Part shown: positions 11,477-39,424 of the stretch, one piece after another
How the letters are laid out: every line of letters starts with the position of its first letter
Numbering within the stretch: position 1 is the first letter of the stretch
DNA from: Halovenus aranensis
GTDB lineage: Archaea > Halobacteriota > Halobacteria > Halobacteriales > Haloarculaceae
Direction of reading: 5' to 3'
DNA: 64,000 nt
Assembly: GCF_900100385.1 (NCBI RefSeq)
Contig: NZ_FNFC01000001.1
Span: 124,001-188,000 of the forward strand
The notes under the pieces: model-generated
The model's database searches: none
The model's input: only the letters and a program-made list of their open reading frames with translations
What the model was told of the DNA's origin: nothing
Position numbers and translations under genes: made by a program

Positions 11477-11497
11477 ACTGGCCTCGACACGCGTGGT

Positions 11498-12262: not shown

Positions 12263-12278
12263 GCCCAGCCAGACGGGG

Positions 12279-12285: not shown

Positions 12286-12310
12286 TGCCGAATCTTCGTA
12301 CAAGACGCTC

Positions 12311-13474: not shown

Positions 13475-13477
13475 GCC

Positions 13478-13870
13478 GTGGTCCGACGTCCGCGCGAGGG
13501 AGAGAGGCACACGTACGAGCGGACATTTGCCACCGAGGAGGTCGAGCAGTTCGCGGCCCTGTCCGGCGACGCCCAGCCCCGGCATACCGAACCCGACGAG
13601 GACGGCAGGCTGCTGGTTCAGGGGTTACTGACTGCGACACTCCCGACGAAAATCGGCGGTGACCTCGCGATGCTCGCACACACGATGGACATCGAGTTCA
13701 CTCGACCGGTTTACACCGGCCAGACGATTGCCTGTACTTGGACGAACGAGCGCGTCGAGGAACGCGAGGGCCGGTACGTCATCACGGCCGATATCGTCTG
13801 TACGCGAGAGGAGACGACAGTGCTTCGTGCCACCATCGAGGGTCACGTCGGGAAAGAGACGGCTACCTGA
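13478..13870 (+). CDS. MaoC-like enoyl-CoA hydratase (hotdog fold)
   Basis: A 130-residue protein with the hydratase-2 signature 'FAALSGDAQPRHTE', where D31 and H36 are the catalytic residues of (R)-specific enoyl-CoA hydratases. Hotdog core strands follow ('DIEFTRPVYTGQTIACTWT'). The start is a GTG 3 nt after the ligase-like stop codon, so the two are cotranscribed and probably translationally coupled. The gene overlaps the 3' end of the convergent racemase gene by 8 bp. Inferred role is hydration of an unsaturated acyl-CoA before oxidation by the BadH-like dehydrogenase. Confidence 0.82.
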   Translation: MVRRPREGERHTYERTFATEEVEQFAALSGDAQPRHTEPDEDGRLLVQGLLTATLPTKIGGDLAMLAHTMDIEFTRPVYTGQTIACTWTNERVEEREGRYVITADIVCTREETTVLRATIEGHVGKETAT

Positions 13871-15011: not shown

Positions 15012-15118
15012 GCACCTCAAATCGACCGTCAGGATGTTATAGCTTCTCATGGCTACTATTTCCCCAACAGAAACCTCGAGTCGCCTTTTTAGTTATTCTC
15101 GTGATAGGTAGTCGTACA

Positions 15119-15802: not shown

Positions 15803-15845
15803 GACCGCCGAGGCTCTCGCACAGTGCGGTCTGTCGTACTCTGTA

Positions 15846-16700: not shown

Positions 16701-16779
16701 CGGTGCCGTGTCGGCTCTTTTCGTTTCACGCGGGACAGAACCACGTCCCGCCGACGAGTCGAAAATCGATGCCTACGTC

Positions 16780-17817: not shown

Positions 17818-17889
17818 CGTACTCACCTCCCCGTCGGGCGACGATAGTCGACGACCAATTCCGCCAGTGGTGTGGGTGTGCTCTCATTG

Positions 17890-18810
17890 TTATAACCTCT
17901 CTATCCGTTCGGTTCCGAACAGTCCGTAAGGCATTACGACGATGACGACGAGGAGGAACACCATCGGAAGGACGGATTCCAGCCCCGGCATCAGAAACTC
18001 TTCGAGGTAGACACCAAACTCCTGGAGAATGCCGACGACGATACCGCCGATGAACGCCCCTGGGATGCTGTCGAGGCCGCCGAAGACGACGGCGGCGAAG
18101 ACGAGAATCGTGATGTCGCCGATGGTAAAGCCCGCTCCGCCCGAGGACATCGCGAGCAGGATACCGCCGATTGACGTGATAGCGATAGACAGCGCCCACG
18201 CGACGACGATAGTCCGCTCGATCGAGACACCAAGGACCATCGCCGCCTGCTGGTCGCTCGCGCTCGCACGGAGAATCGACCCCAGCACGGTGTACCGGAA
18301 GAAGGCCATCAGCCCGGCGACGGTCAACAGCGCCAGAATCACACCGATGACGAAGGGAGCCTGGACCGAGGTGTCGTACGGTAACGTGATGCTCCAGCTT
18401 GGCTGGAGTGCCTCGGGGTAGGCCCGGTACTGCGAGCTGATGAAAAACCTGATGCCACCGTCGACAATGCCGATGAACGCGAGTGTGACGATGACGACTG
18501 ACAGCACCGGCTCGCCGATGAAATACCGGAAGACGAGCCGTTCGAGGGCGACCCCGAGCAACGCACCGATGACGACGGTGAGTCCCAACGCCGCGAACAC
18601 CGGGACTTGCACGTCGAACATCCAGAACGGCACCGAGGTCGACAGGACGACGACGAGGAACGCACCCAGCAGTGCGAACTGTCCCTGTGCGAAGTTCAAC
18701 ACGCCCGTAATCTTGTAGATGAGCGCGAATCCGATGGCAACAAGCGCGTACAGCGCGCCGATGCCGATGCCAGTCACGAGCACGCTGAACAGGCCGGCGG
18801 CGTCAACCAT
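17890..18810 (-). CDS. Branched-chain-amino-acid-type ABC transporter permease (LivH-like)
   Basis: A 306-residue permease with about eight helices. It begins 'MVDAAGLFSVLVTGIGIGALYALVAIGFALIYKITGVLNFAQG', where 'NFAQG' near residue 38 is the LivH hallmark, and ends with a helix 'SVLPMVFLLVVIVVMPYGLFG'. ATG 18810 has a strong SD (GGAGGTGG) and overlaps the stop codon of the acyl-CoA ligase gene by 8 nt, so the two are translationally coupled. Confidence 0.92.
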   Translation of the reverse strand: MVDAAGLFSVLVTGIGIGALYALVAIGFALIYKITGVLNFAQGQFALLGAFLVVVLSTSVPFWMFDVQVPVFAALGLTVVIGALLGVALERLVFRYFIGEPVLSVVIVTLAFIGIVDGGIRFFISSQYRAYPEALQPSWSITLPYDTSVQAPFVIGVILALLTVAGLMAFFRYTVLGSILRASASDQQAAMVLGVSIERTIVVAWALSIAITSIGGILLAMSSGGAGFTIGDITILVFAAVVFGGLDSIPGAFIGGIVVGILQEFGVYLEEFLMPGLESVLPMVFLLVVIVVMPYGLFGTERIERL

Positions 18811-20845
18811 CGACACCACCTCCACTGACCATTGCTTCCTCGTCCATTGGCACGTCGACGACTTCCATCTCGCCGTGTTCGACAGACTCCCTGCCGTCTT
18901 GGTAGGTGATTGTAACGTCCATCTCGACTGTCTCCTCGCCAGCGTAGACGCCGTCGATGAGGTCCTGATACCGATTTGTCACGATTTCGCGCCGAATCTT
19001 GCCGGTTCTGGTCATCTCGCCGTCGTCGGCGTCGAACTCCTTGAACAGCACGACGAACCGCTCGATTTTGTGTTCGTCTAGCTCCTCGTTCGTCTCTCCG
19101 ACGACGCCGCGAATCAACTCCAGTACCGGCTCTTTCTGTGTCAGGTCCTGATAGCCCGCGTACTGGATGTCGCGCTGGTCGGCCCATTCGGCCACGTTGT
19201 CGAATCGGATGTTGAGAATCGCCGACAGCGACTCACGCCCGTCGCCGACGACGAGTGCCTCCTTGATGTAGGGATTGAACTTGAGCTTCGTCTCGACGCT
19301 TATCGGCGCAATTGCCGACCCGTCTTCGAGTTCGAGCACGTCGTCCATCCGGTCGAACACCTTGACGTGACCGTCCTCGGTGATGGCCCCGAAGTCGTCG
19401 GTGTGGAGCCAGTCGCCTTCGAGGGCCTCCTCGGTCTTCTCGGGTTGGTTGTAGTACCCTGAGGTGACGACGGGACCGCTGACCAGAAGTTCGCCCTCCG
19501 GTGTGATACCGACCGTGACGTTGGGGAACACCTCGCCGACGGTATCGACCTGGATGTCGTCGTCGCGGTGCATGGTCACGAACCCACAGACTTCGGACTG
19601 GCCCCAAATTTGCTTCAGCGGGACACCGAGCGCGTGGTAGTACTGGAAGTGTTCTTCACCCAGCGGTCCGCCGCCGGTGTAGACGTTTTTCGCCCGCTTG
19701 AGGCCAACTTTGTCGAGAATCGGCCGGTAGACCGTCCAGTACCCCAGCCAGTGTTTGAGTCGGAGCGACGCCGGCGGCTCCTCGTCACGTTTGTCGCCGC
19801 TGACGTACTCGGCGTAGCGCTGGCCGATATCCATCGCCTTCTCGTAGAACTTGCGTTTCAGCCAGGAGGTGTTCTCTATCTGGGCCTTGATCTCGGCGAC
19901 CCAGCTCTCGTAGGTGCCCGGCGACGAGAAGATGATTTCGGGACCGATTTCGCGCAGGTCCTCGCTCTCTGTCTCGGGCTCTTCGGGGAAATTCGCCGTC
20001 CAGCCGCCGAGAAACGCAGCCGCCATCAGTATCATCTGCTCGCCAATCCAGGCCATCGGCAGATAGGAGAAGTAATCCGACCCCTCCGGCAGTGGGTCGA
20101 TTTCGATTGCCGCGTTGGCGAGGTTGACGAAGTTGAAATGCGACAGTTTCACGCGCTTTGGCATCCCCGTCGTGCCCGAAGTCGGGGGCAACATCGCCGG
20201 CGACTGCGGGTCTAGGTTCCGGATGCGCTCCTCGAACTCCGGGGTCGACACCTCGTTGGCCTCGGCACGGTCCTTGCCGCGCTGTTCGACCTCGTCGTAG
20301 CTTATCACCGGGACTGCCGTGTCGTCGTACCGGAACATCCCCTTCTCGTCGCGGTAAATAATCGCTTCGAGCGAGGGCGAACGGTCGGCGACCTGCAACA
20401 GCTTGTCGACCATCTCCTGGTCCTCGGCGTATGCCACCTTCGGCGACAGCAGTTCGAGCTGGTCGCCGATACCCTCCGGGAGCGTGTCCTCGTAGTTCGG
20501 CGCGGCCATCCCGCCGAGAATCTGGGACGCGAGCCACGCCCAGAGCTGGTGGGGACGGTTGTAGCCGATGGTAAAGAGGATGTCATCCTCCTCGAAGCCA
20601 AACGTCTCCAGCCCGAGGGTGATGTGTCTGACGCGGTCGTAGTACTCTCCCCAGTCGTACTCTTCCCAGACGCCGTAGCGCTTCCAGCGCAGGGCCACCT
20701 CGTCCCCGTGCTCCTGGACGTGGTTGAGCATGATTTCGGGGAGCGTTGTATCCTCGATAATCTCCGTGTCGCCTTCGGGTGCCGTCTCGATTCGCTCGAC
20801 GGTGACTCCCTCCTCGACGCCGAGTTCTTCGTCTGCCTTTGCCAT
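18803..20845 (-). CDS. AMP-dependent long-chain-type acyl-CoA ligase within the transporter operon
   Basis: A 680-residue FadD/ACSL-type ligase that activates a carboxylic acid to its CoA ester through an acyl-AMP. The P-loop is 'TSGTTGMPKR' (residues about 246-255). 'GQSEVCGFVTMHRD' is the A5 core, 'WLHTDDFGAITEDGHVKVFDRMDDVLELEDG' holds the A7-A8 ATP-ribose Asp and hinge, and 'MTRTGKIRREIV' gives the C-terminal catalytic Lys. It is sandwiched between livG and livH with stop/start overlap, so uptake and activation are genetically linked. The substrate is inferred to be the acid taken up by the Liv system. Confidence 0.92.
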   Translation of the reverse strand: MAKADEELGVEEGVTVERIETAPEGDTEIIEDTTLPEIMLNHVQEHGDEVALRWKRYGVWEEYDWGEYYDRVRHITLGLETFGFEEDDILFTIGYNRPHQLWAWLASQILGGMAAPNYEDTLPEGIGDQLELLSPKVAYAEDQEMVDKLLQVADRSPSLEAIIYRDEKGMFRYDDTAVPVISYDEVEQRGKDRAEANEVSTPEFEERIRNLDPQSPAMLPPTSGTTGMPKRVKLSHFNFVNLANAAIEIDPLPEGSDYFSYLPMAWIGEQMILMAAAFLGGWTANFPEEPETESEDLREIGPEIIFSSPGTYESWVAEIKAQIENTSWLKRKFYEKAMDIGQRYAEYVSGDKRDEEPPASLRLKHWLGYWTVYRPILDKVGLKRAKNVYTGGGPLGEEHFQYYHALGVPLKQIWGQSEVCGFVTMHRDDDIQVDTVGEVFPNVTVGITPEGELLVSGPVVTSGYYNQPEKTEEALEGDWLHTDDFGAITEDGHVKVFDRMDDVLELEDGSAIAPISVETKLKFNPYIKEALVVGDGRESLSAILNIRFDNVAEWADQRDIQYAGYQDLTQKEPVLELIRGVVGETNEELDEHKIERFVVLFKEFDADDGEMTRTGKIRREIVTNRYQDLIDGVYAGEETVEMDVTITYQDGRESVEHGEMEVVDVPMDEEAMVSGGGVDG

Positions 20846-25689: not shown

Positions 25690-28600
25690 TCACTCGGCCA
25701 CCTCGATGTCGTCGATAGTGAAGTCGATGCCCGAACCGATGCCGCCGAAGTCGGGGCCGCCAGGCAGTGCTCCGTCTAGCTCGTCGACATACACCTGTAC
25801 GATATCTGACTCGCCCTCAGACTCGACGGTCAGTTGCCAGTGGTCGTCGTCCCAGCCGGCACCTGTCGTATCCCAGACGAGTGTGGCCGTTGTCGTGTTT
25901 TCGGGTGCGAGCGTGCCGATGTTGAGCACGGTGAAGTTTGCCGGTGACTGCTCGATACTCTTGGGACTCAGTACTGCATCGAGGGAGACGAACAGGTCTT
26001 CTGTGATGTCGGTACTACCGCCGTTTGTTATTTCGACGGGCACCGAAATCGGCTCTCCTGCCTCCACTGCCTGTGCCTGGTCGGTTGCCGCGATTGCGTC
26101 CTCGTCGATGTCTATGTTGACCTGCGTGTCGTCTGTCGGCTCGATATCGACGGTTTGCATACCGCTGAAATCGTCCTCGCTCTCGACGATTATTTTGTCG
26201 GTCTCTGCGGAGAAATCACTGGGCGAGAGACTCACCGTCACCGTCTCCGTACTGTCCTCGGGAATCGTACCGGTGTCGACGGTCGTTACGTCAGTCCGCT
26301 CTCCCTGCCCGCTGTCGTTGCGCCTGACTATCAGCGTCTGACTGCCGGCTCCGTCGCCGTCGTTTTTCACGTCGATATCGACCGTCAGCGTCTCGTCCTC
26401 GGTAATCGAGTCGACGCCGTCATCGGCGTTTGTGGCGACGTCGGAAATCTTGAAAGTCTCTTCTTTGTTGTCGACGTCGTCGACTGTCACCTCCTCGCTG
26501 GAGCTGTTCTCGCCGCCGTCTGTCGCTGCGCGGACCTCGACATCGATACTGTCGCCGGTATCGTCTGTCCACCATGTGAACGTCTCGGTCGTCGACTCGC
26601 CATCACTGAGTGCGACGATTTTGCTGTCTTTTTCGACACTGCCGACGGTCAAGACCACCTGTCCGGGGTACGTCTCGTCGGTTCCGTTGACGTTCTCGAT
26701 TTCGGCCGTGACATCGAGCTGGTCGCCGATTGTGACCGGGCTCGCTGTCGTGGTGATATCGACCGCGAACTCTGCCTCTGTGACCTCTTTGCGCTTGACA
26801 TCGACTGGTATTGCCTCCATGTCGTTTTCGGAGTGAACCGTGATGCTCTCGATGTCGCCGTCGCCGATACCGGTCTGCCAGTCGATAGACGTGCTGGTGT
26901 TCTCGCCGCCGTCGAGTTCGACCGGGGCGCTAGTCGCAAGCGTCTGATTGTTCCCGCTTTCGTCCTGATACTCCAGCCAGAGCGTCTGTGTATCGGGCGC
27001 GTTGTCGGTGTTTTCGACGCTGACGTTGACGGTCACGGTTTCGCCCTCCTCGACGCCGTCGTCGACGCTCTGGATGCCAACATCGAAGAACGCAGACTTG
27101 TCCTCGACGGTCACTGCCGTCGGGTTCTCGTTACCTGACGCCACCACAGTCACGTTGTCGGTGTTGATATCGCCGTCTAGCACGCCGGTCGTATCCCACG
27201 ATAGCTGTACTGTCTTGCTCTCTCCGCTGGCGAGACCGGCACTGGAGACGTTCACCAGCGTGCTGTCGACTGGGTTCCCCTCCCAGTCGAGCAGCGTGAC
27301 CGGTACGTCGCCGACACCCTCCCCCGCGTTCTCGATTTCGGCCTCTATTGTCACTGTTTCGCCTTCTGCAATATCTTCGGAACCGTTAATCTCGGCGGAG
27401 TTGATGGCTACCTCAGGCTCTTTCTCCTCGGTAATCTCTTTGATGAGTCCCTCGAAGATGCCGGCGAGTTCCTCGGGGTTGTCGGCCTTGGTGTAGTTCC
27501 CGTCACCGTTTCCGGCGTATCTCGCAACGTCTTTGAGAACCTCTTCGTCTGCATTCCCGAACCCGACGGTGTAGACGGAGAAATCGAGCGGCTGTGAGCC
27601 GTGGCTCATGTTCGTCTCGTTTGCGACGCTGACCGGATCTGCACCGGAATTATCAATCCCATCTGTGAGCAGAATCACGGTCTGGTACCGGTCAGAGTCC
27701 GGGTTCCCGTAGTCGAGGTCCGTTTCGCTGACGAGTTTGTTCTCAGCAGCCGAGATGGCGCCGGCAATATCCGTGTTGCCGCCGGGAGCGACTCTGAGCG
27801 ACTCGTTCACCTCGGCGATATCACCCAGCCCAGTCAGGAAGTTCTGTGAGGTATCGTACTGCATGGCGGCGGCCCTGTCGAGCGTCTTGTTCATCGCGCT
27901 CAGTGCGGTCCATACCGCCGGCACACGCTCGATATTCTTGTCAGAGCCAGTGCTGGGATAGTCGTATTTCTCTATCTCCCAGTTGGTCCAGTCGTCGTAG
28001 TTGTACGCAGAGAAGTTGATTGTCTGGCCGGTGACGAAATAGCCGTCGTTGAACACGTCACAAAAGAATCCGGGACAACTCGACTCATCTGCGGTGACGA
28101 GCCACATCTCGTCTTCTGGAACTGTTAGCGTTCCCGACTTTGGCGGGTCGGTATCTACCTTTTCGGGGAAGTAGTCAGGGTCTCCCATCGACCCCGTCTC
28201 GTCGATGGCGAACACCACATCTGCCGGTAGCCGTGTCGCGTTTCGTGGCTTGACGGTGACGCTGGCCGTATCCGTAGCGTTCTGGCCGTCTGCATCGACG
28301 GTAATCTCGTCGGTCACGGACGCGTCGCCCTCGACCAACCCGACGAGAGTGTACCACGTCAGCGTTACCTGTTTCGACTCACCCTCGGCAAAAGAGAGTT
28401 CCTCAGAGGTAACGTTCACGAACTTGTCGTCGAAGTCCTTGAGCGCAACGACGGTCGCACCCGGCGCAGTCCCGGTGTTCGTCACGTTGATATCGACCGC
28501 CAGCGGCTCCCCTTCGGTGACGGGTGTCGTCGTCGACTCGATGCTGACGTCAAATTCTGCCTCGCCGAGGTCTCGCGGCTCGACACTGACGTTCTCGGCC

Positions 28601-31350
28601 GTGTCCCTGTCGTCGTCTGCGAGCACAGTCACATTGTGTGTCCCGACATCTCCGCTGCCAGTCTCCCAACTCATGTTGAACGGCTTCGTCTCCCCGGTAT
28701 CGACCGCGACACTTTGCTGGTCTGGAATACCGACCGTTTTCAGGTAGAGCGTCTGCGTGTCGTCCTCGCCTGTGTTCGTGACGGTCCCGTTGACGAACAT
28801 CGTGTCGCCGGCGAGAACAGGGTCAGATACCGAGGCGATGTTGACATCGAACTCGGAGCCGTCTGTCCGCTGGAGGACCGTCAACTCGAAGGTAAATTCG
28901 TCATCGTCGGTCTGCAACTTCAGTGTGTAGGGGTCGCCCGAGGCATCGCCCGGAATCGTCTTCCATTCGAGGGCGACCTGTTTCGGGCTGTCACCGGGCG
29001 CGAGTTCGAGTGTGGTGCTGTTCGTCCGGGCGCTGTCGTCGTCGTCGATGCCGTCCCGGTCGAGTGTCACCTGCTGGATGCCTTCTTTGCCGCCGGTGTT
29101 GTTCACGTTCAGAATGACCACTGCATCTTCTCCCTCTTCGACTGTACCGGCGAAGTCTCCGTCGCTGAGTGCCGTGCCGTTGAACGAGACGGACTCGATG
29201 GTGAACTCCGCCGGGTCGCTGCTAGCGGGGTCGACGCTGATGTTGGCCGCTGCCTTCGTCCCGGAAACCGGGGCTTTCACGGTCACGTTTTCCCAATCTG
29301 ACTCCCGGCCTTCCTGTGTCGTCCACGTGAACGTCTCTGTGGTGGTGTTGTTCGGTGGGTCGGGGGGTAGCGTCAGTTCCGTCGAGTTTATCAGGTGTTT
29401 CTCCTCGTCTGTCGGTGTACTTCCCCAGAGGAATACCGTCTGGCTGTCCCCGGTACTGCCGGTATTGTTGATATCGACGCTCACCTCAACCTCGTCGCCT
29501 TCGACGGCACCCGCGTCGTCGACGCTGATATCGGATGGCTCGAACGTACTAGGCGTATCGACCTGTACCTCCCAGGTGGCCGACGGTTCGACGCCGTCGT
29601 GTTTCGTCCCGGCTCCGACCCAGAACTCGTAGACAGAGTCTGCGTTCTCGACCGGGAAGCTGAACGTCCTGCTGTCGTTTTCGCCTTTGTCGGTGCCGAC
29701 CCGCTCACCCCAGACAATCCACGGGTCCGACGGGAGAGTGATGCTAGTCTCGCTTTTGTTCTTTTCGTCGTAGACGAACGCGACTGGTGACTCGCCGGCA
29801 GTTGCGTTGCGATACCCTTCGTTCGTCCAGTTGAGCGTCATCTCTACCTCGTAGCCGGGTTCCAGCGCGTCCGTGTTCGGGTCGAGAGTCGGCCCGCCCG
29901 AACTGTCGTGGACGAGGACGCCGCTTCCGTTGTAGATTTTCGTTCGAAAGTCGTCGATGACGAAATCGGTCTCGAAGTCGCCAACGTAGTCCTTCCAGTT
30001 TTCGCTCGTGTTGACTCCGACCGGTGACTCCAGACAGCCGTTCGAACTACTCGCTGTGTACTCTGTCGCATTCGGTACGAACGCACGGAAATCGTCGGGG
30101 TCGTGTGCGTCGCCAGTCGCGACAACACAGCCCCACGTGTCGGCTGCGACCCCGAACTTGTCCTCACCGGGGTCCGTCTGTGACGCGTCGACGACGCTCT
30201 CGGGAATCATGCTCGTATTCAGCGGCGCTGCGTGGGGGTCTTCGACGTTCCACCACCGGCCGTCTGTCCCGTTGTACGCCCACCACTCCGGTCCGTTGCC
30301 CCGAGTGTCGTTGTTGTAGAGGATACCGACGGTGTACTTTTTCGTATCCCACCCGGGAGCTGTGACGTTGAACGCGGCGTTGCTCTGGTTCGCGATGTCT
30401 GCGGTCCAGGCGTCGTCGGTCCCGTTGTCGTAGAGGTCCTGCGCGAACTCTCCCAGTCCGGTGTACGTGACGTTCTCGGCGTACTCCCGGGACTGATTGA
30501 TTGTGTTCTGTTCGCCGTAGGTCCCGAGGTCAATCTCGGCTACGGGCCTGTCTCCGTCTACCTCACTCGCCTCGTGTACGTCTGTGTCAGCTCCCAGATT
30601 CGACTCGGCGTACTCCGCCCAGCCCTCCGCAAACGCGCTCGTAATATTGAGGGACACCGTCGCGTTTGCGACGTACCGGCCGTCGGGATACTGGCTCCGC
30701 ATCTGCTGTTCGACGAGTTCGGTTATGTTCTCGGCTGCGCTCCCCGCTCCTGGCTGCTTGCGAAGGGAAATTTCGTTACCGTCTTGAACGAGGTCGATTG
30801 AGGAAATATCGACAAAGGAGAGTTCGAGCGTCTGGTTGTCGGCGTACAGGTCTGGCGGGGAAACAAGCGACACGTCACCGCTTTGTTTCTCCCAGACCGC
30901 ACCGCCTTGATAGGCGGTAATCTTGCCGTCGTTGTTCTCATAGACTAAGCTTCCCAGCGTAACGCTATAACTCGCTGTTTGATTGTCGGCGTCTTCGAGT
31001 AACGCTCCGGGTGAATCTGTCGCATCCCAGTACGCCTCGTGTGTTTTGATCGTAATATTCACGTTCCCGTGACCGGACTGGGCGTTGATGTCGCTCGCGG
31101 TCCCGTCAGGAAACTCTATGCTGGTCGAACCCTCAACGTCTTGAGCTGTGAGTTCGCTTACCCGCTCGTCGAACTCTAGAATCGACTGCTGGACTACCTC
31201 GTTGTCCGCGTCCTCAGTGATGTCCTCGAACGCGAACATCCCGACCCCCACGAGGACGAGAGCCATGAGGAAAACGACCGCAATAATTAGAAACGTCCCG
31301 TATATCTCTGAGACGGCACGCTCGCCGCCTGGAGCCCCCTCTCTCATCAT
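25690..31350 (-). CDS. Giant pilin-like surface protein with VWA domain and CARDB-like repeats
   Basis: A 1886-residue extracellular protein. The N terminus carries a class III (PibD) signal: 'GGER' then 'AVSEIYGTFLIIAVVFLMAL', cut after R11, as in haloarchaeal pilins. Residues about 60-600 are a unique head with C408 and C439. Four CARDB-like Ig domains span about 603-1036. A von Willebrand A domain follows (1043-1305): MIDAS D1050, T1052, S1054, later 'GGNTDIAGAI' and 'VILLTDG'. Residues 1056-1150 form an insertion within the VWA carrying C1092/C1097. Five more CARDB-like units end at about 1858. NxS/T sequons are abundant. It lies downstream of pilB, pilC and five pilin-like genes and has its own promoter. 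Inferred to be a filament tip or surface adhesin. Confidence 0.85.
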   Translation of the reverse strand: MMREGAPGGERAVSEIYGTFLIIAVVFLMALVLVGVGMFAFEDITEDADNEVVQQSILEFDERVSELTAQDVEGSTSIEFPDGTASDINAQSGHGNVNITIKTHEAYWDATDSPGALLEDADNQTASYSVTLGSLVYENNDGKITAYQGGAVWEKQSGDVSLVSPPDLYADNQTLELSFVDISSIDLVQDGNEISLRKQPGAGSAAENITELVEQQMRSQYPDGRYVANATVSLNITSAFAEGWAEYAESNLGADTDVHEASEVDGDRPVAEIDLGTYGEQNTINQSREYAENVTYTGLGEFAQDLYDNGTDDAWTADIANQSNAAFNVTAPGWDTKKYTVGILYNNDTRGNGPEWWAYNGTDGRWWNVEDPHAAPLNTSMIPESVVDASQTDPGEDKFGVAADTWGCVVATGDAHDPDDFRAFVPNATEYTASSSNGCLESPVGVNTSENWKDYVGDFETDFVIDDFRTKIYNGSGVLVHDSSGGPTLDPNTDALEPGYEVEMTLNWTNEGYRNATAGESPVAFVYDEKNKSETSITLPSDPWIVWGERVGTDKGENDSRTFSFPVENADSVYEFWVGAGTKHDGVEPSATWEVQVDTPSTFEPSDISVDDAGAVEGDEVEVSVDINNTGSTGDSQTVFLWGSTPTDEEKHLINSTELTLPPDPPNNTTTETFTWTTQEGRESDWENVTVKAPVSGTKAAANISVDPASSDPAEFTIESVSFNGTALSDGDFAGTVEEGEDAVVILNVNNTGGKEGIQQVTLDRDGIDDDDSARTNSTTLELAPGDSPKQVALEWKTIPGDASGDPYTLKLQTDDDEFTFELTVLQRTDGSEFDVNIASVSDPVLAGDTMFVNGTVTNTGEDDTQTLYLKTVGIPDQQSVAVDTGETKPFNMSWETGSGDVGTHNVTVLADDDRDTAENVSVEPRDLGEAEFDVSIESTTTPVTEGEPLAVDINVTNTGTAPGATVVALKDFDDKFVNVTSEELSFAEGESKQVTLTWYTLVGLVEGDASVTDEITVDADGQNATDTASVTVKPRNATRLPADVVFAIDETGSMGDPDYFPEKVDTDPPKSGTLTVPEDEMWLVTADESSCPGFFCDVFNDGYFVTGQTINFSAYNYDDWTNWEIEKYDYPSTGSDKNIERVPAVWTALSAMNKTLDRAAAMQYDTSQNFLTGLGDIAEVNESLRVAPGGNTDIAGAISAAENKLVSETDLDYGNPDSDRYQTVILLTDGIDNSGADPVSVANETNMSHGSQPLDFSVYTVGFGNADEEVLKDVARYAGNGDGNYTKADNPEELAGIFEGLIKEITEEKEPEVAINSAEINGSEDIAEGETVTIEAEIENAGEGVGDVPVTLLDWEGNPVDSTLVNVSSAGLASGESKTVQLSWDTTGVLDGDINTDNVTVVASGNENPTAVTVEDKSAFFDVGIQSVDDGVEEGETVTVNVSVENTDNAPDTQTLWLEYQDESGNNQTLATSAPVELDGGENTSTSIDWQTGIGDGDIESITVHSENDMEAIPVDVKRKEVTEAEFAVDITTTASPVTIGDQLDVTAEIENVNGTDETYPGQVVLTVGSVEKDSKIVALSDGESTTETFTWWTDDTGDSIDVEVRAATDGGENSSSEEVTVDDVDNKEETFKISDVATNADDGVDSITEDETLTVDIDVKNDGDGAGSQTLIVRRNDSGQGERTDVTTVDTGTIPEDSTETVTVSLSPSDFSAETDKIIVESEDDFSGMQTVDIEPTDDTQVNIDIDEDAIAATDQAQAVEAGEPISVPVEITNGGSTDITEDLFVSLDAVLSPKSIEQSPANFTVLNIGTLAPENTTTATLVWDTTGAGWDDDHWQLTVESEGESDIVQVYVDELDGALPGGPDFGGIGSGIDFTIDDIEVAE

Positions 31351-31375
31351 GGTATTATGTACGTGTGTCTCTCAC

Positions 31376-31386
31376 GTATTTAATAC
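31376..31386 (-). promoter_or_regulatory. Promoter of the giant VWA pilin-like gene
   Basis: The minus strand reads GTATTAAATAC, centred 31 nt upstream of the ATG at 31350. With the 190 nt gap after the preceding pilin-like gene, this indicates independent transcription with a leader of about 5 nt. Confidence 0.6.
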
Positions 31387-31540
31387 TATTGAGGGAGCCA
31401 TCTCTGCTCTAGGGTGGTTGCCGTCGCTATCTCGCTCTTAGCTGCCCGTTTTATCGCGTCCTCGCGTTAACAGATATTGTAAATTTTTCATCAATACGGA
31501 GTGTCTCCGGGCGTGAGATGGGGGCTGTTATCCTGCCGCG

Positions 31541-32383
31541 TTAGCTCGAAAACCGTGGCTCGACGATGTCGAGTTCGATTGTCACGACACGGACGAGCGC
31601 CCGGTCTGCCGCGCAGGTGTAGACGTGGTCGCTCGGATTCGACCACGTTTCTTTGCTGTCGAAGAACATATCCCACTGTGCTGGCCCGGCCGTCTGTGAT
31701 GTGTTGACGAACACTGTGGTAGAACTGTCGACGAGTGAGCGCTCGGTGGACACTGTTCTCGCCTCGAAGGTCAGTGCCTCGTCGGTACTCGTGACCGGTG
31801 AGTCACCCCCGGCAGCGAACTGGTCGAGTCCTATGTCGGGGTTGTAGCCGTTCGAGACGTACAGCCCCTCCCGGTCGGCCAACGTAAGATTGACGACCGT
31901 GATGAGCGCTGTCGTGCCGTCGCGACACTCGAAGCTCGGGTCGAACGCTGGGATGGCGTTCGTCCTGAACACGCCGCCGGCCTCGTACCGAACTGTCACG
32001 TCGTCGCCCGAGCGGTCGAACCGCTGTTGGAGTGCGTTCACGGCGAGGTCTGGGTAGGCCACATCACCGTCCGTCGTGACGTTGAGTACCGTCTCGTTTA
32101 TCCAGACGTTGCTGTTCGAGAACGCAATACTGAAGCTGCGTCGACTGTCGCCCCGGGTCGCCATCGGTTGGAGTGTCGCCGCCGCCGATTCCATCCCGCG
32201 CTCGGCGCTTTGTACCTCTTCGACGTTACTGAACGTCTCGAGCTGGGTGCCACCGGTGAACGAAATTAGCCCGGCGCCGACGATTATTATCGCGAACATC
32301 AGCGTGAAGCCGATGGCATCGGAGACGGCGCGACTGCTGTCTGTCGTGGGGCTGTCGCAGCTGTGCTCGGGCGGTCGTCTCAC
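31541..32383 (-). CDS. Pilin-like protein, AVS-type signal (280 aa)
   Basis: A minor-pilin candidate. After a basic/acidic leader of 18 residues, the sequence 'SSR' / 'AVSDAIGFTLMFAIIIVGAG' fits a prepilin-peptidase site and the hydrophobic pilin stalk. The rest (about 45-280) is beta-rich, with two Cys (in 'FECRDG' and 'YTCAAD') that could form a disulfide, and several N-glycosylation sequons. The GTG start overlaps the upstream stop codon as GTGA. It is the last gene of the tight pil operon. The soluble domain matches nothing I know. Confidence 0.78.
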   Translation of the reverse strand: MRRPPEHSCDSPTTDSSRAVSDAIGFTLMFAIIIVGAGLISFTGGTQLETFSNVEEVQSAERGMESAAATLQPMATRGDSRRSFSIAFSNSNVWINETVLNVTTDGDVAYPDLAVNALQQRFDRSGDDVTVRYEAGGVFRTNAIPAFDPSFECRDGTTALITVVNLTLADREGLYVSNGYNPDIGLDQFAAGGDSPVTSTDEALTFEARTVSTERSLVDSSTTVFVNTSQTAGPAQWDMFFDSKETWSNPSDHVYTCAADRALVRVVTIELDIVEPRFSS

Positions 32384-32841
32384 TCACACTCACCTATGGT
32401 TATTGTTCCGGCACACAGGCTGAGAACCGGCGTATCGCTGTTGTCGGGTGACCCGTAATCGATACGCGTCTCGTTGCCGACGGGATACTCAGCAGTCCGT
32501 TCGTAGTGGGGGGATTCGATTTGAATCACGCTCGGCGTATCGTATGTGTCACTCTCGCTTCCGGGGACGACCTCGAAGCTCCAAGAGCGTCCGGCGACAC
32601 TGCCGGGGTACTCCGGCTCGACGCTGACGTTGACTGTACTTCCTGTCTCGTTGAGCCGGTCGAGTGTGTTGAGTTGTGCCGTGAGGTCGCTCCCGATTTC
32701 GTCGAACTGCGACTCGGCGGCCCGTTTTTCTTGTCCGTCGAGCACCGTCCCGGCACCTAAGAGCAGCCCAGAGACGAGTACCGTCGTAATCGCAAGCGTC
32801 AGTGCGTGTGTGACGGCAATCGAGACAGCTCGTCGGTTCAT
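32380..32841 (-). CDS. Pilin-like protein, AVS-type signal (153 aa)
   Basis: A small pilin candidate with an extremely short leader: 'MNRR' / 'AVSIAVTHALTLAITTVLVS'. The helix continues as an amphipathic stretch (residues 33-60), then a beta domain with two Cys near the C terminus (in 'LSLCAGTITIGECE'). The ATG shares its A with the stop codon of the upstream gene (TGATG), and a GTG one codon upstream is an alternative. Small size and position suit a core or minor subunit of the pilus. Confidence 0.75.
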   Translation of the reverse strand: MNRRAVSIAVTHALTLAITTVLVSGLLLGAGTVLDGQEKRAAESQFDEIGSDLTAQLNTLDRLNETGSTVNVSVEPEYPGSVAGRSWSFEVVPGSESDTYDTPSVIQIESPHYERTAEYPVGNETRIDYGSPDNSDTPVLSLCAGTITIGECE

Positions 32842-33722
32842 CACGACCCACCTCCGTAGGCTGTGACGTTGGTCTCGTAGCTCACCTGTGGGTCCTCGTA
32901 GGTTATCTCGAACGTCGGATTGAGTGTGACATCACTCGCGGTGTAGAGTTTCTCATTCTTCTTGTCTGTGGGGAAGTTGGAGTTACCTTCGGCTACGATT
33001 CTGAATGTCCCTTCGACGGTTCCGCCATCGTCAAAGACGACGTGCTTGTTCGAACTGTAGTACGTCGAGCCGAGTGCGAGGCTTGCACAGGTGGTGTCGC
33101 CGACACTGATTTGTCCTGTGCCGTGAGAGAGCGTTAGCTTGAGCGGCGTCTCCGCTGTCGCGGTGAACCCATCACATTTTGTCGCGCCGTCGACGTTCAC
33201 TTCACCGCTGTCTATCTCGATGGTGAGCGGACTACTCCTTCCCAGGTCGATTGTGAAACTCCCGCTGATATCTTCGAACGTGTAGGACATGTAAGTGAGA
33301 TTTGCCGGATCACCCTGGACAATCGGCCCGTCTGGGAACGTATCGGTCACGTTCTGCCAGATAACACCTCCGCCGTTCTGTTTGGCGTCGATGAGTGTCA
33401 CGTTCACGAACTGAGCGCTCCCCCGGGTCGAGAGGTTCAGATACTGCTCGGTGTACTCCTTGACCGCTGCCGCAAACGCGTCTTCTTCACCTGGTTCGAT
33501 GTACGGCAACCGCTGTTGGGAGCCGTTGACCATGAACAGCTCTTCGAGGCTGTCCTGTAGCTGCTCGATGTCTCGCTCGGTCTGTTCGAGGCTCTGTCGC
33601 TCCTGTTGGGCTTTGACATCTGCCGAGGCGTGGATATCGTTCAACAGCACGGCCGAGGCGACAATCGTCAGCGACACCAGGATTGCTGCCGTCAACAGCA
33701 ACTGGCCGCGTCTGTTCACCAT
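32841..33722 (-). CDS. Pilin-like protein, GQ-type signal (293 aa)
   Basis: This candidate has the leader 'MVNRR' followed by 'GQLLLTAAILVSLTIVASAV'. The N-terminal helix is not followed by AVS but by GQ, so it belongs to a second class of pilin-like sequences found in haloarchaeal surface clusters. Residues 33-66 form a Gln/Glu-rich coiled coil. The remainder is beta-rich with two Cys (in 'TKCDGF' and 'TTCASL'). The start overlaps the preceding stop codon by 7 nt. Confidence 0.75.
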   Translation of the reverse strand: MVNRRGQLLLTAAILVSLTIVASAVLLNDIHASADVKAQQERQSLEQTERDIEQLQDSLEELFMVNGSQQRLPYIEPGEEDAFAAAVKEYTEQYLNLSTRGSAQFVNVTLIDAKQNGGGVIWQNVTDTFPDGPIVQGDPANLTYMSYTFEDISGSFTIDLGRSSPLTIEIDSGEVNVDGATKCDGFTATAETPLKLTLSHGTGQISVGDTTCASLALGSTYYSSNKHVVFDDGGTVEGTFRIVAEGNSNFPTDKKNEKLYTASDVTLNPTFEITYEDPQVSYETNVTAYGGGS

Positions 33723-34312
33723 GCCACCACCCGAACCTGGATAACTGCGTAGATATCACTGCTCTCGTTTTGGTTGTAGAGATATATATCCTCGTCTGGC
33801 ACGTCGCCGAGATTCTCGTACTGTGTGTCTTCGACACATGCCTGTGCTGACCTGTTGAACTCGAATACCGGGTCGCTGTCGAACAGCACCACTTCACGAG
33901 TCACCGTCACGGCCGGACCGGTCGGCGTCAACTCGGGACCCAGCACAATCTCGTCGACTGCCCCTGTCTCGTTCGGGTAACCGACGTACACGTTGTAGTT
34001 GGCGGTCTGCCGAAGCGTCCGGTTCAGCACTGCGCCTACCGGCTCGACTGCCGGGTCGGTCGACACCACGCCGTCGTGGGGTGTCGTTTCGTTGTCCCCG
34101 CCCAGACAGAGTGCGCCCGTTTCGAGTGCGTTCTGGTCGGCCAGAATATCGACGGTGTCTTGCGCCTGCCCCTGTACCTCGATGCCCTGTTGGGGGCCGC
34201 CGTCGGTCCAGGGAACGATGCTGACAGCCTGTAGCCCGAAGACCAGGGCGCTCGCGATGACGATTGTCCCGATGACCCCTTCGAGTGAGTATGCCTGTCC
34301 TCTCTCAGTCAT
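33716..34312 (-). CDS. Pilin-like protein, GQ-type signal (198 aa)
   Basis: Leader 'MTER' followed by 'GQAYSLEGVIGTIVIASALV', then a soluble domain of about 165 residues. The Glu near position +7 after the predicted cleavage recalls the Glu5 of bacterial pilins. Two Cys (in 'GALCLGG' and 'AQACVED') may pair. The frame extends 10 codons upstream, but ATG 34312 gives the standard leader and stands 2 nt from the preceding stop codon. N-glycosylation sequons are present. Confidence 0.75.
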   Translation of the reverse strand: MTERGQAYSLEGVIGTIVIASALVFGLQAVSIVPWTDGGPQQGIEVQGQAQDTVDILADQNALETGALCLGGDNETTPHDGVVSTDPAVEPVGAVLNRTLRQTANYNVYVGYPNETGAVDEIVLGPELTPTGPAVTVTREVVLFDSDPVFEFNRSAQACVEDTQYENLGDVPDEDIYLYNQNESSDIYAVIQVRVVAW

Positions 34313-34314
34313 TG

Positions 34315-34761
34315 TCACCACACCCGTACTACCAGACGGCAACCGTTTTCACAGACGGTCGGAATCCGGACAAACCGGACTGTCGACGCTGTCTGTCGGT
34401 CGTTCCAGACGCTCCCGTTTTGCAGCGCGACACCGTCGTCTGTGACGACGCCGCTCGCGTTGTGAACGGTCGCGTTCCAGCGCAGCCACTCGGGTACCCC
34501 GACCCGTGCCGAGTCGTCGACCAGCGCGTCGATGCTCCGGTTCAACGACCTGAAGCTTACGGTCTGGTCCGTCCCCGGGACGGTGCTGTTCTCGACGAGC
34601 TCTGTTGCGAGGTTGTCGGCCATCACCCGCTGTTCGTCGTCGACCTCCTCCTCGAAGGGCTGGAACAGCCCCGGAAAGTATCCGAAGACGATGACAATCG
34701 CGAGCAACAACAAGACGATGCCCAACAGGTAGTCGTTCACCGTCTGTCCGCGCGCCGTCAT
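34315..34761 (-). CDS. Pilin-like protein, GQ-type signal (148 aa)
   Basis: Leader 'MTAR' followed by 'GQTVNDYLLGIVLLLLAIVI'. It starts with an ATGA overlap (34758-34761) with the stop codon of pilC, so it is coupled to the platform protein. The soluble domain is about 110 residues, with one Cys near the C terminus ('VCENGCRLVV' has two). It is the first pilin-like subunit of the operon and among the smallest, which makes it a candidate for initiating filament assembly. Confidence 0.75.
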   Translation of the reverse strand: MTARGQTVNDYLLGIVLLLLAIVIVFGYFPGLFQPFEEEVDDEQRVMADNLATELVENSTVPGTDQTVSFRSLNRSIDALVDDSARVGVPEWLRWNATVHNASGVVTDDGVALQNGSVWNDRQTASTVRFVRIPTVCENGCRLVVRVW

Positions 34762-36920
34762 CGCCTGTTCGTCCCCCCTGTTCTGTCGTCGGAGTAACCC
34801 GTACGCGGGTCAAGCGAATCGCTGATAGACCACCCGGCCGGTCCGGCCACAAGCAACAGCATCTGTGCCGTCTCTTCGCCGCCGCCACCCGTTATCTGCT
34901 CGACGATAATCCACGTGATGAGCGCGATGGTCGAGAGAATCACGGCGTATTTCGCGCCCGAGAGTACCTCGACGTTGCGGATATAGCCCGCGATAAACGA
35001 CGAGATAAGGGCCTGTAGCGTGACCGCGTGGAAGAACAGCATCGAGAGAAACTCCGTGTCGAGGCCGCCGGCGAACTCTGTCGTCTGCTGTGCTGCTTCT
35101 TCGCCAGCCTCCTCGCCTGCGGCGGCCAACCCGCCCATCGTCTCGAGGAACTGGACTTTCAACAGCGCCATCACGGCCAACAGCGTCAGGTAGGTCATGA
35201 TGATGATGACCGTCTGCATCAGCGTCCGAGCCTTGCGCTCACGCTCGATTTCGTCTTGGTTTTCAGAGGCAGTCGCAGCCGTCGACAGCACGTCCTGAAT
35301 CTGGCTGGAGGCCTCCTGGGCCTCGCTGATGAGCTTGACGGTCCGTGCGAGCCGGGGGACGTGATACTTGTTGTTGAACTCTCGCATCGCGTCTTTCAGG
35401 CTCGTCCCGAAGTTGACCTTCGAGTGCATCGACTCGAACTCGGCCGAGAGTTTCCCACTCGATGTTTCCGAGACGACCTTGATGGAATCGAGCAGCGTCA
35501 TCCCGGTGTCGTTTGCACTCGCGAGCTTTCGGAGGTTCTCCGAGAGGTCGTTTAGAATCGCCTTCCGGGAGCGGACGTTCCACTCGTAGAACACTGCGAG
35601 CGGGAGGAGGTTGAGATAGATGGGGACATACACCCAGACAAGCGTCCCGACGATTGGGTCTGACTTCATCGCATCCACCGACAGCGGCATATTCCCGGTC
35701 GCCAGTGCGCCGATGAGAACCAGCAGCGTCAGCGGCAGTGTCAACACCAGAACGAGCGTCGGGTGGTCTCTGAAGAAGAGATGTGGCGCTTTCACTATCT
35801 CCATCAGTTCGTGGGTCCCCTCCTGGCGCTTTATTTTCTCGAAGAGGTCACGGTCGCCGGTGTACTCCTCGACGAGGCCGGGATTGAAGACGCCGATACC
35901 TTCGTCGACGGTGAAGTCCTCGCCGGCATCTGGCCGAAGGTAGCCGTCGCCGACCTCGTCGTGGGTGACAGTCGACACCATCACCAGAAAGCCCGCGCCG
36001 ATGAGCGGGATGAGTCCGTAGACCGTGCCATACAGCAGTGTTGTCTGGTCGCCGCTCCCCATCATACTCATGATGACGAGAATGATAATGAGCAGGAGCG
36101 GAAACAGCGACAGCGTCATGTACATCTCACCGAACAGCTCCAGCGTGTCCAACAGCTTGCGCTGTTCCTGTTTAGCCGTCCGGAGGTGTTTGTCTTTCTG
36201 GTCTTCGAGGAAATCGGTCATGTCTCCACCAGAATCGAGAATCGACAGCATATCTGTCAGGAACTGCGCCAACTCGTCGCTCGGTGTCGTCAGCGCCTGA
36301 TTCTGGACCGCTGTCCGGTAGTCCGTATCGAAATACTCCGTCTCCAGCACGATAGACTGGAACTCCCGGGAGAGTTCGCCGTAGGTGTCGTCGGCCTTGG
36401 CCATCGCCTTCAGGATTTCGAGCTGGTTCATGCCACCGACCGACAGCGCGTACATGAACGCGATACCGTCGGGCATTAGCGTGTTTATCTCGCGTTCGCG
36501 CCCGCCTGCCCGGAAGTACGGTATCGACACGACCGAGCCAAAGCCGATGCCGAACCCGATAGAGCCGAAAATAAGGCCAGATGTCAGCAATATAAGCGGC
36601 GTCCGGAGAACGCGCAACGGCTCCAGCGGGCCGAGCTGGATGCCGACCAACACGTCGCCGACGAATATCTGGACGAACAGCCAGCCGACGAACACGCCGA
36701 GCAGCCACAGCCCCATCCCGGCGATGAGGCCGACTGCGAGCGCCCGTGAGAGAAACATCTCGACGTTGTCGGCCATCCGCGACTGCGCGAGTTTCTCTTC
36801 GACATCGTTGACGAAATCGCTGTCTTCGCTGAACAGCCACTGGTACAGCGGATAGAACGCGCCCCCCAGCGAGCGGTCCCCACCTTCGAGTTGTCGTCCA
36901 CGGCGTTTGTCAAGACTCAT
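34758..36920 (-). CDS. pilC: Type IV pilus/T2SS-F-family membrane platform protein (PilC/TadC-like)
   Basis: A 720-residue inner-membrane assembly platform. Two T2SS-F domains are visible (about 145-300 and 440-600), each with the helical bundle and flanked by paired membrane helices (about 58-90, 105-130, 265-330, 385-440 and 590-700). The cytoplasmic segments 'GIAFMYALSVGGMNQLEILKAMA' and 'MTLLDSIKVVSETSSGKL' mark the two repeats. It contacts the PilB ATPase, whose gene is 2 nt upstream. Length and duplication agree with haloarchaeal PilC rather than ArlJ. Confidence 0.92.
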   Translation of the reverse strand: MSLDKRRGRQLEGGDRSLGGAFYPLYQWLFSEDSDFVNDVEEKLAQSRMADNVEMFLSRALAVGLIAGMGLWLLGVFVGWLFVQIFVGDVLVGIQLGPLEPLRVLRTPLILLTSGLIFGSIGFGIGFGSVVSIPYFRAGGREREINTLMPDGIAFMYALSVGGMNQLEILKAMAKADDTYGELSREFQSIVLETEYFDTDYRTAVQNQALTTPSDELAQFLTDMLSILDSGGDMTDFLEDQKDKHLRTAKQEQRKLLDTLELFGEMYMTLSLFPLLLIIILVIMSMMGSGDQTTLLYGTVYGLIPLIGAGFLVMVSTVTHDEVGDGYLRPDAGEDFTVDEGIGVFNPGLVEEYTGDRDLFEKIKRQEGTHELMEIVKAPHLFFRDHPTLVLVLTLPLTLLVLIGALATGNMPLSVDAMKSDPIVGTLVWVYVPIYLNLLPLAVFYEWNVRSRKAILNDLSENLRKLASANDTGMTLLDSIKVVSETSSGKLSAEFESMHSKVNFGTSLKDAMREFNNKYHVPRLARTVKLISEAQEASSQIQDVLSTAATASENQDEIERERKARTLMQTVIIIMTYLTLLAVMALLKVQFLETMGGLAAAGEEAGEEAAQQTTEFAGGLDTEFLSMLFFHAVTLQALISSFIAGYIRNVEVLSGAKYAVILSTIALITWIIVEQITGGGGEETAQMLLLVAGPAGWSISDSLDPRTGYSDDRTGGTNRR

Positions 36921-36922
36921 TG

Positions 36923-39424
36923 TCAGCTATCGCCGTCCGCCCCCGCCTTGGGAACGAACTGTCCGAAGTTGATATCGTCGTCGTCGGCGTCGACAGAGTC
37001 GTCATCCTGCCCTTCCAGGGCCGCGACGAGGTCGCTCGTCTCCATCTCTCGGTAGCCATCGAGCATCGGCTCGGCGCTTTGTAGAATCTCGTCTGTCTCC
37101 TCGATGACCTCCTCTGGTGGGTCGGGGCGAGGAACCAACTCCTCTTTCTCGGGGTCGACCTCAATCTGAACCGACTCCATCTCCCGGAGGTCTTCGAGTG
37201 AGCGTTCGAGACTCTTCTTTGCGATGATAGCGAGTATCGTCTCCGGGTCGTTGATAAAGGCCTGGACCGTCGCCGCCACCTCGGTGTAGGTGTTCAGACC
37301 GTTCTCGATGAGGTACGCGAGGACGATTTTCCGCTTGAACAGCTCTTTGTCCAGACGCTCTTGTGACCAGCCGCGGTCGAACTTGATTTCTTCGAGCGTG
37401 CTCGATGAACCCATCTGGAGGAACTGGTCGGTCTCGGCGCGCCACTCGTAGACGTCTCGAACGTTAATCTCGTCGTTCTCTGGCGAGTATTCGTTGATTT
37501 CTGTCAGCTTCTTGTTCCGGCGAACCTTGCGTCCGCCGACCCGTGTCTGGGTCTGAATCGACACCAAATCCAGCGCGGTAAACAGCGTCTTCGAGACGTT
37601 GATAGGGTCTGTGGTGAACCGCTTGATGACTTCGCCGACCGTGTCGGCGTGGAAGGTCGTGTAGGTGGTGTGACCGGTCGACATGACCTGGAACAGCGTT
37701 CGCCCCTCTTCGCCACGAATCTCACCCATGACGATGTAATCTGGACGCTGACGCAGCGCCGCCTCCAGCAGGTCGAACTCGTCGACGTCGCCTTTGTCGT
37801 CTTCGCCGAAGGAGGGACGAGTGACACTCGCCACCCAGTTACGCTGTGGCAGTTCCACCTCGCGGGTGTCTTCGATAGAGACGATTTTCGCACTCGAGGG
37901 GATAAACAGCGACACCGCATTGAGGCTCGTCGTCTTTCCTGAGGCAGTACCACCGGCGAAAATCAGTGATTTGTGGTTCTCGATACAGAGCCACAGGAAC
38001 GCCATCTCGTCTAAGTTGAACGTGTTCCAGTTGATCAGGTCGACCGGCGTGAACGGCACGTCCTTGAACTGACGGATAGTGTAGTTTGTGCCGTGGTCAG
38101 AGACTTCGGCTCCCAGCGTCAACTGGGCACGCGAGCCGTCTGGCAGCGTCGCGTCGACCTGTGGCTGGCGCTTCGAGATACCCTTCCCGGAGCGCTGGGC
38201 GAGCTTGACGACGAAGTCGTCGAGTTCGGTCTCACCGTGTTCGACGTTCGTGATAATCTGCTCGTAGTCAGTGTGATAAACGAACACGCGGCTGTTGTAG
38301 CCGTCACAGGAGATGTCCTCGACGTTGATGTCGTGTTTGATTGGGTCGATGCGGGCGTACCCGATGAAGTCCCGCTTGAGCATGTACAGCATCTTCTCGA
38401 CTTGGTACTCGGTCAGCGTATCGGGGTCGTCCTCGATTATCGCGGGCTCGGGACGCGCCTCGACGCCGTCGAGTTCCGGAAGCTCTTCCCAGTCCTGTTC
38501 GTCCTCATCAGCGAGGCCAACAGCCTCCTTGATATCGCCGAGCAGGCCGCTGTCAGCGTTGTTCTCCTTAACAGCCCGCTTGCCGGTGAAGATGTTATAC
38601 CGCTTGAGGAGTCGCTCCGACTCGCGCTCGATGACATCGGCGCGGTCCTGTTCGCTCCCCTGGACGATAACGTCGTCCTCAGAGTACTTGATAGCGGTTT
38701 TGAGCTTTCGCGAGAGGAAACTCCGAAGCTCCGCCTCGATTTCGTTGAGATGTGGCTCGATAACGTAGTACTTGATTTCGTTTTCCTTCTGGGATTTGAA
38801 GACGACGACACAGGCGTAGGGCTTGTTGACCCAGTACCGGTGTTGTTCGATGAAGTGGGTCTTTTTTTCCATGGGAACAGCCTTTTCGAGGTCGTACCGA
38901 TTGACGACGGTCTGTGTCCCATCGCGTGTCGAGAAGAATTCGTCTTCGTCGAGGTTCTCGTTCACGTCGATTGTCCGCTCGTCGACGACCTGCTTGAGCT
39001 TCTCGGCGGCACCGTTGCCGTAACTGAGCCGTTGCTCGGTTTCGGCTGGGTCGAACCCGAGGTATTCGGCTGGGTCGAACGGACCAGCCTCCTCTGGTGG
39101 CATGCCGTCCTCGTCGTAGTAGTATTCCTGTTTGAAGTGCTCCCAGGTATAGTGACCGACGACGACCCCGCGTTGCTCGGGGTCCCGGTAGCGCTCGACC
39201 ACCCGGTCGAGCGTCTTGGCTGCGCTCGCGCCTCGCTCTAGCCGGTGGTCGGTTTCCATCGGGTCGAATCCGAGATATCGACTACGGTCGAACCGACCCT
39301 CGTCGTGTTCCTCGCGTCGAAAATCGCTCCACGAGTACTCGCCGACGACTACGCCGTCACCGAAGCGCATGACACCACCCGTCCCGGCGTCATCGTCGCT
39401 CCCCCCGGTGTCATCGATTGCCAT
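36923..39424 (-). CDS. pilB: Type IV pilus assembly ATPase (PilB/GspE/TadA-like)
   Basis: An 833-residue secretion ATPase energising pilus assembly. Walker A is 'GGTASGKTTS' (491-500), the Asp box 'SIEDTREVELP' (516-526), Walker B 'DYIVMGEIRG' (562-571) and the His box 'TTFHADTVGE' (589-598). The N-terminal region holds two tandem copies (about 24-78 and 85-150) of a motif including 'VVVGxYxW' and 'YLGFDPxET', which may be a regulatory or docking element. Start at ATG 39424 ('MAIDDTGGSD'); the upstream 15 codons are unlike the family. First gene of the pil operon. Confidence 0.94.
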   Translation of the reverse strand: MAIDDTGGSDDDAGTGGVMRFGDGVVVGEYSWSDFRREEHDEGRFDRSRYLGFDPMETDHRLERGASAAKTLDRVVERYRDPEQRGVVVGHYTWEHFKQEYYYDEDGMPPEEAGPFDPAEYLGFDPAETEQRLSYGNGAAEKLKQVVDERTIDVNENLDEDEFFSTRDGTQTVVNRYDLEKAVPMEKKTHFIEQHRYWVNKPYACVVVFKSQKENEIKYYVIEPHLNEIEAELRSFLSRKLKTAIKYSEDDVIVQGSEQDRADVIERESERLLKRYNIFTGKRAVKENNADSGLLGDIKEAVGLADEDEQDWEELPELDGVEARPEPAIIEDDPDTLTEYQVEKMLYMLKRDFIGYARIDPIKHDINVEDISCDGYNSRVFVYHTDYEQIITNVEHGETELDDFVVKLAQRSGKGISKRQPQVDATLPDGSRAQLTLGAEVSDHGTNYTIRQFKDVPFTPVDLINWNTFNLDEMAFLWLCIENHKSLIFAGGTASGKTTSLNAVSLFIPSSAKIVSIEDTREVELPQRNWVASVTRPSFGEDDKGDVDEFDLLEAALRQRPDYIVMGEIRGEEGRTLFQVMSTGHTTYTTFHADTVGEVIKRFTTDPINVSKTLFTALDLVSIQTQTRVGGRKVRRNKKLTEINEYSPENDEINVRDVYEWRAETDQFLQMGSSSTLEEIKFDRGWSQERLDKELFKRKIVLAYLIENGLNTYTEVAATVQAFINDPETILAIIAKKSLERSLEDLREMESVQIEVDPEKEELVPRPDPPEEVIEETDEILQSAEPMLDGYREMETSDLVAALEGQDDDSVDADDDDINFGQFVPKAGADGDS
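38975..39355 (-). repeat. Tandem repeat in the PilB N terminus (residues 24-78 and 85-150)
   Basis: Two copies of a 55-65 residue unit. Shared positions: VVVG, W, F, FDxxxYLGFDPxETxxRL, G, AAxxLxxVVxxR. Confidence 0.8.

Follow-up and report, generated by a model that had tools for sequence, protein, structure and literature searches.

The window, that is, the whole 64,000-nt stretch of DNA analysed, lies on contig C22 of the source genome (G000), whose nearest named relatives are Halovenus salina and H. rubra. It contains a pilus locus of eight genes, all on the minus strand, as are all window features given below. The earlier note had described here pilB and pilC, five tightly packed pilin-like genes and a 1886-residue protein with a pilin signal, and the coordinates, Pfam matches and motifs bore this out, with every gene at its noted position. 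The locus is headed by pilB (36923..39424), whose product, a secretion ATPase of the PilB4 type, matched the Pfam families T2SSE (1.6e-31) and PilB3_C (1.8e-8). The T2SSE core of this 848-aa protein spans residues 431-643 and is flanked by long N- and C-terminal extensions; over 717 aa, PilB is 72% identical to its Natronomonas counterpart, which stands at the head of the same locus. The N-terminal extension (39100-39424) contains two copies of the motif VVG.Y.W..F..E...FD...YLGFDP.ET, and both align to one stretch of the Natronomonas protein, in which the motif is seemingly single-copy.

Only 2 nt separate pilB from pilC (34758..36920), which encodes a membrane platform protein matching T2SSF in two stretches (4.4e-29) and overlaps by 4 nt the first of five small pilin genes. 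Four of these encode minor pilin-like proteins of the families DUF7287 (34315..34761; PF23958, 4.9e-32; class III motif RGQT), DUF7288 (33716..34312; PF23959, 1.1e-35; class III motif RGQA), DUF7261 (32841..33722; PF23922, 5.8e-6, 27.1 bits against a cut-off of 27; motif RGQL) and DUF7266 (32380..32844; PF23928, 3.7e-15; motif RAVS), and the fifth encodes a single-domain DUF7289 pilin of 280 aa (31541..32383; PF23960, 1.5e-25). The five genes overlap one another by 1-7 nt or are set 2 nt apart. The last gene of the locus (25690..31350), defined by its open frame and domain matches, encodes the 1886-aa protein, hereafter the giant, and is followed by a tRNA synthetase gene of the tryptophanyl/tyrosyl type, named by eye. 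A class III-type R[AG][VQ]x motif near the N-terminus, followed by a hydrophobic stretch, is present in all five small proteins and in the giant.

A gap of 190 nt sets the gene of the giant apart from the tight five-gene pilin run. Approximately 30 nt upstream of its start lies a TATA-like box (31377..31385; TAGTATTAAATA / TATTAAATA), identified as a consensus match only, and the identical string recurs at the same distance from the start in L137 and L138, both from other Halovenus genomes. Because of the gap and the TATA-like string, the giant's gene may have a promoter of its own. The locus had also been called complete, which holds in a relative sense, the prepilin peptidase being encoded elsewhere in the genome, where a single Peptidase_A24 match was found on contig C12 (C12:71549-71965).

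The giant begins with a pilin module (aa 10-278; 30517..31323) made up of a RAVS signal at aa 11, a long N-terminal helix (predicted at aa 13-69) and a beta-rich head of predicted strands; its sole hydrophobic/transmembrane stretch is at aa 11-45. A full-length hmmscan missed DUF7289 in this protein, and the family became visible when the N-terminal piece was used alone: aa 11-263 matched PF23960 with 42.9 bits (E 5.3e-11; curated cut-off 27). Judged by this match, the N-terminus is a true member of DUF7289, the pilin family of this system, which upholds the pilin nature proposed earlier and places the giant in one family with its 280-aa neighbour, a kinship that the earlier note had missed. 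Next comes a second module (aa 272-537; 29740..30537) that matched no Pfam family; its own HMM matched only some Halovenus giants (L137, L138, L139 and L142) and none of the short proteins. An N-side arm of CARDB-like repeats (aa 555-1039; 28234..29688; CARDB over the cut-off), of which four were counted at the strict threshold and five at the loose one, leads to a VWA head (aa 1041-1316; 27403..28230; PF00092, 7.5e-11). The MIDAS of this head is complete, its ligands (DxT/SxS, T, D) being D1050, T1052, S1054, T1193 and D1230. A C-side arm of six CARDB-like repeats (aa 1307-1857; 25780..27432; CARDB 2.5e-14) follows, and the protein ends in a conserved strand of alternating pattern (...GSGIDFTIDDIEVAE; aa 1870-1886; 25693..25743). 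The VWA and CARDB domains ascribed to this protein are therefore real, being over curated cut-offs and, in the VWA, accompanied by the MIDAS residues. In Pfam we found no enzymatic domain in the giant, no TadE/TadG match and no bacterial N-methylation motif (IPR012902), and phmmer gave no match to solved structures. By its domain composition, a DUF7289 pilin joined to VWA and CARDB domains that are not specific to pili, the giant is a modular pilin.

Many secreted proteins of archaea contain CARDB and VWA domains, and the giant could instead be a membrane-anchored surface or S-layer-associated adhesin whose pilin-like N-terminus is merely a signal anchor and which never polymerises. Its single N-terminal membrane helix, the typical surface domains, the 54 N-glycosylation sequons that we counted in it, and the gap with a possible promoter would all suit such a protein. 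Against it, the giant retains the whole DUF7289 pilin head, beyond the signal, and a pilin-type C-terminal strand, and its slot goes together with the pilin set and with that set's clade, as described below. We consider this alternative unlikely, and our preferred reading is that of a modular minor pilin.

We picked 80 named haloarchaeal loci by similarity to the PilB of this locus and scored gene order in the 64 where 7.5 kb or more follows pilB. In concordance with the pilus locus proposed in the earlier note, the order pilB-pilC-DUF7287-DUF7288-DUF7266-DUF7289 was kept in 51 of the 64, so that the lack of conserved gene order which the note had named as a refutation is not what we saw. A few of the 13 deviating loci differ merely through over-long open frames or cut stretches, and approximately nine have pilB-pilC without a nearby pilin set. 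All 80 loci are headed by pilB, with pilC the next gene in nearly all relatives, wherever the contig permits. DUF7288 was found in 273 of 295 genomes of the order, and DUF7289 in 98 of the 119 genomes that we sampled across the phylum, where two copies, of ~260 aa and 470-530 aa, frequently occur together; both families were also matched in H. volcanii, which belonged to the control set. The first seven genes are a haloarchaeal PilB4-type pilus locus. The PilB4 system was described by Makarova, Koonin and Albers (2016) as having its own pilins and a duplication-prone minor pilin, arCOG02911, of 250-550 aa (PMC4858521). The locus studied here shares with it the extended haloarchaeal ATPase, the TadC-type platform, a pilin set of its own and a duplicated minor pilin of variable length, and departs from that description in that one copy of the variable-length pilin reaches 1886 aa with CARDB arms and a VWA head. 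From the description of arCOG02911 we infer that it corresponds to DUF7289, since DUF7289 often occurs as such a pair.

Loci of the Natrialbaceae have no modular partner in place after the pilin set, and such a partner is therefore not essential to the machine. In three of them (L083, L088 and L096) the pilin set is followed by cheR-like and cheD-like genes, recognised by eye, and the locus may there border a chemotaxis/archaellum cluster. In five Haloarcula assemblies (L063, L066, L068, L069 and L131) the contig stops ~2 kb past the pilin set, and the break could hide a modular partner.

An HMM iterated from the N-terminal piece of the giant united the 250-290-aa neighbours, the 430-650-aa proteins of the slot and the giants. 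Most relatives with a partner in the slot have a DUF7289 pilin of 430-650 aa with DUF7305 or DUF7308; all 21 short forms tested carry an N-terminal DUF7289, behind which DUF7305 was found in 12 and DUF7308 in 8. Giants of 1150-2270 aa are present in Halovenus, Salinibaculum, Halomicrobium and relatives, and a giant confined to this one strain was thereby rejected. Among the 16 large forms, CARDB was detected in 10 and VWA in 10. The head is a VWA domain in the 1886-aa giant, L137, L138, L139 and L141, VWA with PPC in L142, and Glug-like in L145 and L146; no head domain could be assigned in L140, L144 or L147, the last from a sister genus. A pilin with VWA and without CARDB was found in Haloprofundus (L104, 739 aa) and Halorientalis (L079). 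The VWA domain is thus not the constant part, being replaced or undetected within the genus itself, and in many haloarchaea the slot is filled by the short DUF7305 or DUF7308 proteins; as a defining trait of the giants it was rejected, given that several of them have no detectable VWA. As far as domain assignments tell, the slot holds a modular pilin with exchangeable modules, the head varying between two CARDB arms. The locus of L147 (G018; 7240-19501) combines the two types of minor pilin set, which flank a giant of 2267 aa.

This head exchange bears on a further explanation, in which the giant would be a pilus mechanosensor or assembly regulator whose VWA reports tension, a role that has been proposed for CpaL, rather than mainly an adhesin. 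The pilin-VWA architecture is indeed like that of CpaL, whose loss alters surface sensing (PMC12607857). Yet several close relatives have the VWA replaced or undetected, and changing ligands explain the exchange of heads more easily, so that we hold a sensor or regulator to be improbable and keep to an adhesive modular pilin.

The type of partner goes together with the pilin set. A tree of DUF7288 sorted by partner into neighbours of giants, of short forms and of VWA-only pilins, requiring 4 changes compared with 13.9 in shuffles, and none of 200 shuffles came as low as 4. Relatedness of the species could produce such sorting. It is countered by the source genome and G007, each of which holds two sets that fall in the clades of their partner types; in the source genome, one set accompanies the giant and the other, on contig C42, a short form of 547 aa. 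This second DUF7288/DUF7289 set (C42:111141-115455; L157, L159 and L162) has none of the genome's PilB matches nearby. A further DUF7289 gene lies at C7:141466-145354 (L158, L004), near another PilB paralogue (a 749-aa frame).

A feature that the earlier note did not mention is the conserved pilin-type strand at the C-terminus. The last 12-15 residues are alike in single-domain pilins (..VTIVEVDI), short forms (..VTYLHVTENEVEVELD) and giants (..PIDIDLEEIEIG), whose preceding modules are unrelated. A simple alternating pattern marks the C-terminus of 14 of the 16 giants and of 20 of the 21 short forms, compared with 8.9% of random windows of the giants, these being related sequences. This suggests that the modules are inserted before the last strand of the pilin and not hung on its end. 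AlphaFold2 modelled L104 with a pLDDT of 91 for its last 10 residues and of 75-97 for most of the pilin head, while residues 538-725 were below 50; overall confidence was low both in this model and in that of the N-terminal piece of the giant (pTM 0.42-0.45). Given the shared strand and the high pLDDT of the last ten residues of L104, the arrangement that would most simply account for both has the final strand lying against the pilin head, with the modules looped out ahead of that strand. The L104 VWA matched solved VWA folds by Foldseek, among them PTMP1, integrin I domains and Mfa5, a protein of the pilus tip; the N-terminal model of the giant (pTM 0.45) gave no Foldseek match to solved structures at E <=0.001.

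If the modules loop out before the last strand, both CARDB arms would start and end at the pilin. Repeat counts of the two arms correlated in 12 giants (Spearman 0.70, p 0.012), and the mean difference between arms was below that of permutations (p 0.002-0.006), although in both cases the sequences are few and related. At the loose repeat threshold the correlation was weak (0.29), owing to one spurious match inside the L146 pilin, and rose to 0.57 (p 0.051) when this was left out; the symmetry of the arms is for this reason suggestive only. We tentatively propose, while leaning slightly against it, that both ends are held in one pilin head and that CARDB arms of matched length form a hairpin with the exchangeable head at its apex. 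Such a two-legged hairpin, if true, would explain how heads are exchanged without touching the pilin, and we found no report of a two-legged, head-swappable pilin architecture.

In bacterial type IVa pili (T4aP), the tip adhesin PilY1/PilC is a large protein that in many cases carries a VWA domain with MIDAS; PilY1 does not belong to the pilins, and its C-terminal part is a beta-propeller. The giant resembles it in size and in its VWA with MIDAS and differs in its pilin module and in giving no match to the beta-propeller in Pfam or NCBIfam. PilB of Streptococcus sanguinis is a bimodular protein of pilin and VWA with MIDAS proposed to be a tip adhesin (PMC8179133); unlike the giant, it has a class III signal of the bacterial kind, a processed length of 454 residues, a short loop to the VWA and no CARDB arms, and the likeness is one of architecture, not of demonstrated sequence kinship. 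CpaL of Caulobacter crescentus and TadG/KilN of Tad pili (PMC12607857, PMC12075869) are, like the giant, large minor pilins with an added domain, VWA in CpaL, and models place such a pilin at the tip, in complex with two small minor pilins. They belong to Tad machinery and are far smaller, and the giant has no TadE/TadG match. The earlier note had taken the fusion of pilin and VWA for a different solution to the problem solved by PilY1. In light of PilB and CpaL, pilin-VWA fusions and the modular pilin concept are already known in bacteria, where the most extreme member of a census of modular pilins has 860 residues (PMC8179133). In architecture, the giant is an archaeal and far larger counterpart of these proteins; our searches of the open literature turned up no modular VWA pilin from archaea, which is not proof of absence. 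More broadly, a conserved slot in which pilins of 430-2270 aa exchange heads but retain the pilin module and the last strand would be the archaeal counterpart of bacterial modular pilins, and it would suggest a role for DUF7261, DUF7266, DUF7287, DUF7288, DUF7289, DUF7305 and DUF7308.

To our knowledge, little has been established about surface recognition by archaeal pili, and no ligand has been assigned to the PilB4 machine. We think it probable that the giant belongs to the PilB4-type pilus as a modular minor pilin, and that its looped-out CARDB arms and VWA head bind a surface or a cell. By analogy with S. sanguinis PilB and with CpaL, its DUF7289 module would insert in the membrane and be processed by the prepilin peptidase encoded on contig C12, and PilB/PilC would then add the giant to the filament along with the DUF7287, DUF7288, DUF7261, DUF7266 and DUF7289 minor pilins. 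Its place would probably be in the tip or priming complex, with display along the fibre, as far as sequence tells, as possible as a tip location. From the pilin, ahead of its last strand, a very large exchangeable region would loop out, in which the two Ig-like CARDB arms would carry the MIDAS-containing VWA head off the fibre and beyond the S-layer, where the head would bind a surface or another cell; on our analysis, such adhesion is the likeliest function of the giant. We favour this reading because of the PF23960 membership over cut-off and the one HMM that joins giant, single and short forms; because the slot and gene order recur across haloarchaea and the DUF7288 tree is sorted by partner; because heads are exchanged, short forms carry DUF7305 or DUF7308 and the C-terminal strand is shared and, in L104, modelled with high pLDDT; and because the L104 VWA matches known VWA folds and bacteria offer a precedent for VWA pilins in the role of tip adhesin (PMC8179133, PMC12607857).

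The function of the machine itself leaves room for a secretion-type pseudopilus in place of an adhesive pilus, with the giant as a scaffold for cargo or effectors, seeing that no filament phenotype is known for the PilB4 machine and that PilB4 of H. volcanii was seen in one growth medium only (PMC7305310). We regard such a scaffold as very improbable, as the giant has no enzymatic domain that we could find and its CARDB and VWA are binding domains, and an adhesive modular pilin again fits better.

Finally, a canonical PilA-like pilin adjoins the modular pilin in loci of the Halobaculum type (L118:20283-20720 and L119:19693-20190) and is a candidate for the major pilin.
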